64,000 bases of DNA, from contig NZ_VCNL01000003.1 in NCBI RefSeq assembly GCF_007671685.1, positions 1-64,000 of the forward strand, given 5' to 3'. Source of the stretch: Halorubrum salsamenti. Its GTDB lineage: Archaea > Halobacteriota > Halobacteria > Halobacteriales > Haloferacaceae. The translations under genes and the position numbers were made by a program. Shown piece by piece: positions 23,733 to 51,656 of the stretch. The notes under the pieces are model-generated. The model was not told where the DNA came from and ran no database searches. It was given only the letters and a program-made list of their open reading frames with translations. Position 1 is the first letter of the stretch. Every line of letters starts with the position of its first letter.

Positions 23733-25430
23733 GTGATCGTTCGGAGGATAGAGGAAGTCGCCTCACGGCGGCTGGCCGCGAAATTCTCCGACGATAACGA
23801 CACCGGGGCGCGACCGCCCCGCGGCGGTACCGGCCCCGAACCCACCGACCAGCCGACGGACTCCCTTTTGACCCGAACACAACTCACCACACTCGACGAG
23901 GTACAGCTGTTAGACACTACCCTGCGCGACGGCGAGCAGATGCCCGGCGTCTCGCTGACGCCGGCCGAGAAGGTCGACGTCGCCCGCGAGCTCGACGCGG
24001 CTGGGATGCACCTGATCGAGGCCGGCTCGGCGTGCACCTCCGAGGGCGAGCGCGAGGCGATCCGCCGGGTGGCCGCCGAGGGGCTCGACGCGACCGTGAC
24101 GAGCTTCGCACGCGGCGTGAAGGCCGACATCGACCACGCGCTCGACTGCGGCGTCGACGGGATCAACCTCGTCGTTCCCGCGTCGGACAAACACGTCGAG
24201 ACGAAGGTCGGCTCGACCCGCGACGACGTGGTCGAGACGACGGTCGAACTCGTCGAGTACGCCACGGATCACGGGCTGTGGGTCGAGGTGCTCGGCGAGG
24301 ACGGCTCCCGTGCCGACCTCGACTACCTCGAACACCTACTCGGCGCCGGTCTCGACGCCGGCGCCGACCGGATCTGCTACTGCGACACCGTCGGCGCGGC
24401 CGACCCGGAGCGCACCGCGGAGGTCGTCTCCCGGCTCGCCGACCGCGGCCCGACGAGCCTCCACACGCACGACGACCTCGGCTTCGGCGTGGCGAACGTC
24501 CACGCGGGACTGAAGGCGGGCGCCGACACCGTTCACGGCACCGTCATGGGCGTCGGCGAGCGCGCCGGCAACGTCGCCCTGGAGGAGGTCGCAATCGCGC
24601 TCGACCGGTCGTACGACGTCGACACCGTCGAGCTGGAGCGGCTCTACCGGCTCTGCCGGACCGTCTCGGAGGCGACCGGCGTCGCGCTCCCTCCGAACAA
24701 GGCGGTCTGCGGCGCCAACGCCTTCGCTCACGAGTCGGGGATCCACACCGACGGGACCCTGAAGGACGGGACGATGTACGAGCCGTACCCGCCGGAGACG
24801 GTGGGGCGCGAGCGGCGGCTCGTCCTCGGGAAACACGCCGGGCGTGCGGGGGTCAAAGCGGCCCTCGCCGAGCACGACGTGGCGGTCGACGACGGCGAGC
24901 TGAGCGAGGTCGTGAGCCGCGTGAAGGATCTCGGCGACCGCGGGAAACGCGTCACCGACGCCGACCTCCTCGCGATCACGGAGGACGTGCAGGGCCGCGA
25001 GCGCGACCGGTACGTCGAACTCGTCGACCTGTCGGCCACCTCCGGCGGGAACCTCCCGACGGCCTCGGTCCGGCTCCGCGTCGGCGACGACGAGCGCGTC
25101 GCCTCCGGCACCGGAGATGGTCCGGTCGACGCCGGGCTGGAGGCGGTGCGGGCTGCGTTGGCGGGAGACGGAAGCGAACAGGGCGCCGGAGGCGGGGTCG
25201 ACTTCGAGCTCGACTCCTACCACGTCGACGCGATCACTGGCGGGACCGACGCCGTCGTCACCGTCGAGGTCGACCTCTCGCGAGGCGACCGGTCCGTGAG
25301 CGTCTCCTCGACCGACGCCGACATCACGCGCGCCAGCGTCGTCGCGATGGTCGACGGGCTCGACCGTCTGCTCTCCGCCGCCGCCGAGGACGGGTCGGCG
25401 CCGGACGCCGCCTCGCTCGCCGACGACTGA
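23733..25430 (+). CDS. 2-isopropylmalate/(R)-citramalate synthase family enzyme
   Basis: This is a 565-residue DRE-TIM metallolyase. The catalytic stretch LLDTTLRDGEQMPGVSL starts near residue 60, followed by HTHDDLGFGVAN (metal histidines), HGTVMGVGERAGNV and NAFAHESGIHTDG. The C-terminal part (about 400-560) is the LeuA-type allosteric dimer domain. It condenses acetyl-CoA with 2-oxoisovalerate (LeuA) or pyruvate (CimA); I cannot separate these from sequence. The start is uncertain: the GTG at 23733 gives a non-conserved 50-residue leader. Confidence 0.85.
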   Translation: MIVRRIEEVASRRLAAKFSDDNDTGARPPRGGTGPEPTDQPTDSLLTRTQLTTLDEVQLLDTTLRDGEQMPGVSLTPAEKVDVARELDAAGMHLIEAGSACTSEGEREAIRRVAAEGLDATVTSFARGVKADIDHALDCGVDGINLVVPASDKHVETKVGSTRDDVVETTVELVEYATDHGLWVEVLGEDGSRADLDYLEHLLGAGLDAGADRICYCDTVGAADPERTAEVVSRLADRGPTSLHTHDDLGFGVANVHAGLKAGADTVHGTVMGVGERAGNVALEEVAIALDRSYDVDTVELERLYRLCRTVSEATGVALPPNKAVCGANAFAHESGIHTDGTLKDGTMYEPYPPETVGRERRLVLGKHAGRAGVKAALAEHDVAVDDGELSEVVSRVKDLGDRGKRVTDADLLAITEDVQGRERDRYVELVDLSATSGGNLPTASVRLRVGDDERVASGTGDGPVDAGLEAVRAALAGDGSEQGAGGGVDFELDSYHVDAITGGTDAVVTVEVDLSRGDRSVSVSSTDADITRASVVAMVDGLDRLLSAAAEDGSAPDAASLADD

Positions 25431-50664: not shown

Positions 50665-50694
50665 CACAGCCGCGTATCGACCGCAACGTCTTTT

Positions 50695-50720
50695 ACTACC
50701 TAGTAATATTACTTGGTTGT
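50695..50720. promoter_or_regulatory. Near-perfect 26-base palindrome at the thi4 start, candidate operator
   Basis: The core AGTAATATTACT (50702-50713) is a perfect 12-base palindrome. It extends to 26 bases with only two mismatched pairs and ends directly before the thi4 ATG. A TATA-like CTTTTACT (about 50690-50697) overlaps its left edge. Archaeal thiamine genes are controlled by the ThiR repressor, so a ThiR site is the leading idea. Confidence 0.6.
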
Positions 50721-51656
50721 ATGCACGGATTCGACGGCTTCAGCGACGTGAGCGAGACCGACGTGACGAAGGCCATCGGCAACGAGTGGACCGACGGGTT
50801 CCTCGATTTCACCGACTCCGAGGTGATTATCCTCGGCGGCGGCCCGTCGGGGCTGATGGCGGCCAAGGAGCTGGCCGAGCGCGGCGTGAAGGTGATGATC
50901 GTCGAGAAGAACAACTACCTCGGCGGCGGGTTCTGGCTCGGCGGGTTCCTGATGAACACGGTGACGGTGCGAGACCCCGCACAGGAGATCCTCGGCGACC
51001 TCGACGTGGACTACGAGCCGGTCGACGACGTGGACGGCCTCTACACCGCCGCCGGCCCCGAGGCCTGCTCAGGGCTGATCAAGGCGGCCTGCGACGCCGG
51101 CGCGCGCGTCCAGAACATGACGGAGTTCACCGACCTGGTCGTCCGCGAGGACCACCGCGTCGGCGGGATCGTGATGAACTGGACGCCGGTCCACGCGCTT
51201 CCCCGCGAGATCACCTGCGTCGATCCCATCGCGGTCGAGTCCGACCTCGTGATCGACGCGACCGGCCACGACGCGGTCGCGATCAGTAAGCTCGACGAGC
51301 GCGGCGTCCTCTCGGCGCCCGGCATCGAGCACGCGAAGGAGCACAACACCGGGATGGACCAGACGGGGGACGGCGAGTACGGCGCCCCGGGACACGACTC
51401 CCCGGGCCACGATTCGATGTGGGTCGGCGAGAGCGAGGACGCGGTCGTCGAGCACACCGGCGTCGTCCACGACGGCCTGATCGCGTCCGGCATGGCGGTC
51501 GCGACGGCTCACGGGCTCCCGCGGATGGGTCCGACGTTCGGCGCGATGCTGGTCTCCGGAAAGCGCGCCGCGCAGGCCGCCCTCGACGAACTCGGCGTCG
51601 ACGAGCCCGAAGTCCGGCTCTCCGCGAGCGACGCGCCGGCGCCGGCGGACGACTGA
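50721..51656 (+). CDS. thi4: Thiamine thiazole synthase (Thi4 family)
   Basis: The 311-residue FAD/NAD-binding-fold enzyme makes the adenylated thiazole of thiamine from NAD. It has the glycine-rich loop [20 protein letters not shown] (36-55), [15 protein letters not shown] and LVIDATGHD. The active-site position is Cys166 in EITCVDP, as in yeast and Haloferax volcanii Thi4, where the cysteine sulfur is donated. Methanogen enzymes have His and use free sulfide. A strong palindrome abuts its start. Confidence 0.95.

Follow-up and report, generated by a model that had tools for sequence, protein, structure and literature searches.

What is a nearly symmetric stretch of 26 bp doing directly before the start codon of thi4, the gene for thiamine thiazole synthase, in a Halorubrum genome? 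Such an element lies in the window, by which we mean the whole 64,000 nucleotides of DNA that were analysed, and comparison of sequences makes it highly probable that the palindrome is an operator of the thiamine repressor ThiR, covering the start of thi4, whose transcript is probably leaderless, and occupied when thiamine phosphates are plentiful. The features on which the argument turns are the following:

50680 to 50687, forward strand: ACCGCAAC, moderately conserved and upstream of the TATA-like element (columns -41 to -34)
50691 to 50695, forward strand: the TATA-like TTTTA of thi4 (positions -30 to -26); its last base is also the first of the palindrome
50695 to 50720, no strand assigned: imperfect palindrome of 26 bp, proposed ThiR operator (11 of 13 pairs; core AGTAATATTACT at 50702-50713; 20-mer ACCTAGTAATATTACTTGGT at 50698-50717)
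50721 to 51656, forward strand: thi4, thiamine thiazole synthase, the target gene (311 aa; Pfam Thi4 193.5 bits, cut-off 26.2)

The palindrome and the thi4 promoter

The identity of the gene is also supported by TIGR00292, against which its product scores 205.9 bits (cut-off 148.3). The NCBIfam label of this protein (50721-51656) reads "sulfide-dependent," yet a cysteine is present in its ITCVDPI segment, and we read this residue as the active-site cysteine. Haloarchaeal Thi4 is described in a passage of one article as having an active-site cysteine and a single-turnover reaction (PMC12029414), and the active-site cysteine is essential in Haloferax Thi4 according to the title of another (PMC4215014), so the NCBIfam name may mislead for the Thi4 of the window.

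Positions 50695-50720 read ACTACCTAGTAATATTACTTGGTTGT and the ATG of thi4 begins directly after them, at 50721, as an earlier note on this DNA had stated. The note was also right that the core is a perfect palindrome, which holds for all 12 bases of AGTAATATTACT, and that the element fills the gap that separates the ATG from the TATA-like element, with TTTTA reaching into its left end by a single base. Its count of 24 paired positions among 26 was too high, as pairing holds at 11 of the 13 opposed positions, or 22 of 26 bases, and the one 26-mer in the window that pairs at 24 of 26 is located elsewhere than thi4. It could be argued that the palindrome arose by chance or reflects a generic promoter symmetry with no regulatory role, given that the window contains 11 26-mers with at least 22 of 26 bases paired, compared with a mean of 5.15 in 40 dinucleotide shuffles (sd 2.3, maximum 10). 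When the local 100 bp around the palindrome were shuffled, 11 of 13 pairs were reached in 3 of 5,000 shuffles; by itself, the symmetry is evidence weakly above chance. The palindrome is significant because it is conserved across thi4 loci and not through symmetry alone. Its sequence and register are kept at thi4 across many genera and the sites are restricted to thiamine genes in 39 genomes, which already contradicts a chance origin and leaves it a negligible probability. The 12-base core AGTAATATTACT alone is uninformative for searching, with 18 places in the genome at up to two mismatches vs. 20 for the backward control.

We assign TTTTA as the likely TATA box from its spacing to the ATG, and columns -30 and -26 of this TATA-like element are strongly conserved among 79 distinct thi4 upstream regions. 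ACCGCAAC sits where a BRE would be expected and may act as one. A TATA-like box at -30 to -26 would set the transcription start at the ATG or right beside it, the arrangement expected of leaderless haloarchaeal transcripts; the thi4 transcript is thus probably leaderless, in which case the palindrome would work at the DNA level and not through an RNA hairpin. The TPP riboswitch (THI element) is an RNA-based control of thiamine genes that responds to thiamine, and a symmetric element that adjoins a start codon might be taken for a hairpin or riboswitch in the thi4 leader. However, no TPP riboswitch was detected in the whole window by Rfam at the gathering threshold, which bears out the earlier remark that none was visible, and the only two Rfam matches in the window are leuA-Halobacteria and a tRNA. 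Furthermore, the palindrome would not be transcribed from a promoter with its conserved TATA-like box at -30 to -26, and at other thiamine genes the site lies +1 to +33 from the ATG, sometimes next to or before the TATA-like box. An RNA element at this position therefore has a vanishingly small probability. As a separate observation, the leuA-Halobacteria RNA at window positions 23737-23789 is a strong match (73.4 bits, gathering threshold 47.9).

Conservation of the site before thi4

Conservation was assessed in the best 80 of 591 confirmed Thi4-protein matches in the genome collection, comprising 31 loci labelled Halorubrum and 49 others, mostly from other Halobacteria; two of the 80 are copies on one contig, which leaves 79 distinct upstream regions. 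When these were aligned on the start codon, the strongly conserved columns were -14, -13, -10, -5, and -4 in addition to the two TATA-like columns at -30 and -26, and the symmetry score peaked at a single axis 13 bases before the ATG, where 0.60 of pairs matched compared with a mean of 0.26 (sd 0.05) across 65 axes. At least 8 of 13 pairs were found in the 26 bases before the ATG at 52 of the 80 loci vs. 2 of 314 control 26-mers taken farther upstream, and this degree of pairing in the exact register is seen both within Halorubrum (23/31) and at the other loci (29/49). Fewer than six pairs were present in the thi4 register at 15 of the 80 loci, seven of which (six Halorubrum and one Halobellus, L049) have their best register three bases farther from the ATG, with 8-11 pairs.

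The same loci were scored for mismatches against the consensus ACYNRGTRRTAYYACYNRGT, with the site placed to end 3 or 6 bases upstream of the ATG. At most one mismatch was found at 46 of the 80 loci and at most four at 75, whereas the best of 314 control positions has five mismatches and none (0/314) has four or fewer; as ACYNRGTRRTAYYACYNRGT was drawn up partly from these loci, the values measure agreement and are not an independent test. The fit is closest among the Halorubrum loci, 28 of 31 having no mismatch and all 31 at most three. It is looser outside them, where 17 of the 49 loci have at most one mismatch, 38 at most three, and 44 at most four; 11 of the 49 have at least four, the worst being L081 with seven.

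Sites in the genome and the genus

The window's own genome (3,674,958 bases in 21 contigs) was searched with two patterns. Allowing one mismatch, ACYWAGTRRTAYYACTWRGT occurs in two places only, at thi4 (no mismatches) and at thiC (one mismatch, 11 bases ahead of the ATG). Allowing three, it occurs in 4 places vs. 6 for the backward control, so that such weak matches by themselves mean little; the other two places (L100 and L101, three mismatches each) have no recognised thiamine gene nearby. The consensus ACYNRGTRRTAYYACYNRGT is found in 50 places at up to three mismatches vs. 28 for the backward control, and 11 of the 50 fall between -6 and +45 relative to the ATG of a reading frame of 120 or more codons. 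Five of these 11 belong to thi4, thiC, tenA (+28), thiD (+1), and thiB (+1), the last three with three mismatches each, a level prone to chance. The remaining six lie at genes not recognised as thiamine genes and are taken as chance, as are two further places: C1:538391, the sole place of ACYNRGTRRTAYYACYNRGT at two mismatches, with no recognised thiamine gene nearby, and C16:139095, which matches the core AGTAATATTACT with one mismatch before a superoxide dismutase gene and is absent from the places of the longer patterns. The thiB product satisfies TIGR01254 (thiamine ABC transporter substrate-binding protein; 125.3 bits, cut-off 93.4) and falls below the narrower thiB equivalog (89.2 vs. 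317), and the gene is followed by a permease gene and an ABC ATPase gene. The earlier note had proposed a search for further copies of the palindrome at thiC, thiD-thiN, and thiamine transporters; the first and last were found, at thiC with one mismatch and at the thiB transporter with three, but there is no thiD-thiN to carry one, the thiD of this genome being free of a ThiN fusion.

Specificity was clearer across the genus, for which 39 genomes (G000-G038, the window's own genome included) were drawn evenly from a larger group. ACYNRGTRRTAYYACYNRGT at up to one mismatch gave 54 sites in 36 genomes compared with 1 for the backward control, and all 54 adjoin thiamine genes: 36 at thi4 (in 35 genomes, one with two copies), 5 at thiC, 5 at thiD, 7 at tenA, and 1 at a thiB-like gene. 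The protein families of all twelve thiD and tenA products at these sites were checked. A thi4 gene was found in 36 of the 39 genomes, G010 and G034 having weak matches only and G019 none, and 35 of the 36 bear the motif at up to one mismatch about 3-6 bases before the start. The exception is G001, where the motif has two mismatches, so that the site stands before thi4 in 36 of 36 thi4-bearing genomes. The earlier note had named the absence of the palindrome from the thi4 upstream regions of close relatives, or from other thiamine genes, as the outcome that would speak against its reading; the reverse is seen on both counts. In G034, for which neither thi4 nor thiC was matched, the only site lies 1 base before the start of a ThiB-like gene, whose product scores 91.1 bits against TIGR01254, just below the cut-off of 93.4.

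At thiC, which gave 18 matches in 15 of the 39 genomes, every locus with a 5' end (16/16, two of the 18 rows being pieces without one) has the motif at one to three mismatches just upstream, next to a TATATTA-like stretch; the thiC sites abut or overlap this TATA-like stretch. The gene is broken or a remnant in two genomes, being in two pieces in G018 and a 3' piece with a stop in G021. At tenA, the seven sites of the genus are 30-33 bases upstream of the ATG and lie immediately ahead of a TTATAAC-like stretch. This placing, which differs from that at thi4, would fit a ThiR that activates or acts dually on some targets, a variant of the operator reading that does not exclude it. However, the position at thi4 and thiC, overlapping or adjoining the TATA-like box and the start, is one that suits blocking, and repression has reportedly been published for Haloferax. 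We therefore regard an activating or dual role as unlikely. The placings at both thiC and tenA suit a repressor, and that at tenA would also allow other modes.

A candidate regulator

If the palindrome is an operator, which protein would read it? The window's own genome contains one ThiN-domain match, in the C-terminal part of a 299-aa protein (G000:C15:92592-93491) encoded on the same contig as thi4 and approximately 42 kb from it. The protein has an HTH_3 domain near its N-terminus (29.9 bits, cut-off 23) followed by the ThiN domain (152.7 bits, cut-off 25), and as an HTH joined to a ThiN domain is the ThiR architecture, we take this protein to be ThiR. Its related solved structures are two ThiN-domain chains, 2php and 2pb9. 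Among the NCBIfam models it satisfies none, the best being a ThiD-ThiN model at 73.6 bits (cut-off 528). A dCTP deaminase-like gene runs into the start of thiR (464-1090 vs. 1087-1986 in L016), and the overlap suggests that the two are co-transcribed. No operator was found before thiR, the best match in the 186 bases scanned having seven mismatches, and the nearest place of ACYNRGTRRTAYYACYNRGT at up to three mismatches is about 2 kb off (C15:90585); with no site ahead of the gene, there is no sign of autoregulation.

Catalytic ThiN is found fused to ThiD, and regulatory ThiN domains are reported by Hwang et al. 2017 to be without the methionine-bearing helix of catalytic ThiDN. In a comparison of four sequences, an STMGW segment is present in two ThiDN proteins of the genus and absent from the 299-aa protein, as well as from a 197-aa fragment of another ThiN protein; the 299-aa protein retains the ThiN histidine (SEHVA). 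Our own reading is that STMGW corresponds to the methionine-bearing segment of that ThiR/ThiDN distinction. Since this segment is missing and the genome encodes a ThiE-family gene separately, alongside its separate, unfused thiD, the ThiN domain of ThiR need not be a TMP synthase. Additional ThiN genes occur in some relatives: a second ThiN-domain protein, at L149 (G014:C11:515419-517313), has a thiDN gene directly after it, G014 has a further ThiN gene elsewhere, and G017 has three ThiN matches.

The link between site and ThiR is drawn from shared function and co-occurrence and not from contact, and the pattern would look no different if another regulator controlled these genes. The palindrome could then serve an unrelated thiamine-responsive regulator as its operator, and ThiR would act at other places. 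ThiN-domain genes are present in 38 of the 39 genus genomes (counted as domain matches, with the HTH inspected in a subset), and two of the 38, G010 and G019, lack both thi4 and any site at up to one mismatch, so that the presence of ThiN is statistically inseparable from the presence of sites. Conversely, G012 has three operator sites and no ThiN match in an assembly that is 94% complete, which could be an assembly artefact or a genuine loss of ThiR. In the same genome, two opposed thi4 copies lie on one contig (contigs C14 and C146; L207 and L188, probably the same record as L038 and L039), and the tenA frame is short and matches just the first half of the TenA family. Against a second regulator, all 54 genus sites are at thiamine genes and ThiN takes its name from a thiamine-phosphate synthase fold, the window's own genome encodes one HTH-ThiN protein, and work on Haloferax volcanii is said to name ThiR as the repressor of thi4 and thiC. 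An unrelated regulator is therefore improbable, and ThiR, which the earlier note had put forward as the best candidate, is supported as such by the HTH-ThiN gene together with the restriction of sites to thiamine genes, its binding to them being the predicted step.

Proposed mechanism

Under the ThiR operator reading, a ThiR dimer loaded with thiamine phosphate would bind both AGTAAT half-sites of the thi4 palindrome. The bound protein would lie across the transcription start as well as the TATA box edge, thereby blocking the assembly or the escape of RNA polymerase at thi4. When thiamine phosphates are low, ThiR would release the site and thi4 would be transcribed. This order of events agrees with published work on ThiR, in which thiamine phosphate reportedly promotes binding and the gene is shut off while the vitamin is in good supply.

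Known systems and significance

Hwang et al. 2017 (J Bacteriol 199:e00810-16) reportedly described the HTH and ThiN repressor ThiR of Haloferax volcanii, with operators at leaderless thi4 and thiC and no riboswitch. The system proposed here shares the HTH-ThiN architecture, the operators at thi4 and thiC, and the lack of a riboswitch, and differs in belonging to another genus and in having sites also at thiD, tenA, and thiB; the comparison covers the described architecture and target genes. Archaeal ThiR regulons, those of Halobacteria included, were reportedly reconstructed by Rodionov et al. 2017 (J Bacteriol 199:e00743-16), who are said to have found palindromic, lineage-specific motifs at synthesis and transport genes and to have given thiamine phosphate as the effector of ThiR. 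Palindromic motifs at thiamine genes are shared with these regulons, again at the level of description. In Pyrococcus furiosus, the ThiR protein PF0601 is named in part of one article as a predicted regulator of thiamin transport (PMC10746257); the regulator name is the same, whereas the predicted regulon there is one of transport and synthesis genes dominate here. ThiR is also stated, in a passage of a further article, to be present in all Haloarcula and Natrinema species studied (PMC12029414).

As ThiR, its operators, and halobacterial regulons are already in print, the thi4 site is a further case of a known switch, and the known picture of archaeal thiamine control is unchanged by it. What is new here is the list of sites for one genome and the 54/54 specificity across the sampled genus genomes. 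Comparison alone was enough to trace one palindrome, spotted by eye, to a whole regulon, and a consensus of the ACYNRGTRRTAYYACYNRGT type is usable for ThiR-type sites in Halorubrum. If haloarchaeal Thi4 is a single-turnover enzyme, one Thi4 protein would be spent per thiamine, and tight repression of thi4 would be valuable to the cell.

The genus comparison also bears on how thiamine control may follow the pathway. No thiC was found in 24 of the 39 genomes, 23 of which keep a ThiN gene and 21 of which keep thi4 with its site, and many Halorubrum species may need an outside source of the pyrimidine precursor yet retain the thiamine repressor. More speculatively, and with considerable doubt on our part, the ThiR of Halorubrum might be a single-purpose regulator whose operators track the thiamine pathway as it is lost and rebuilt. 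If this is true, the placing of the operator, whether over the start, at the TATA box, or upstream, would grade the order of derepression between salvage and synthesis.
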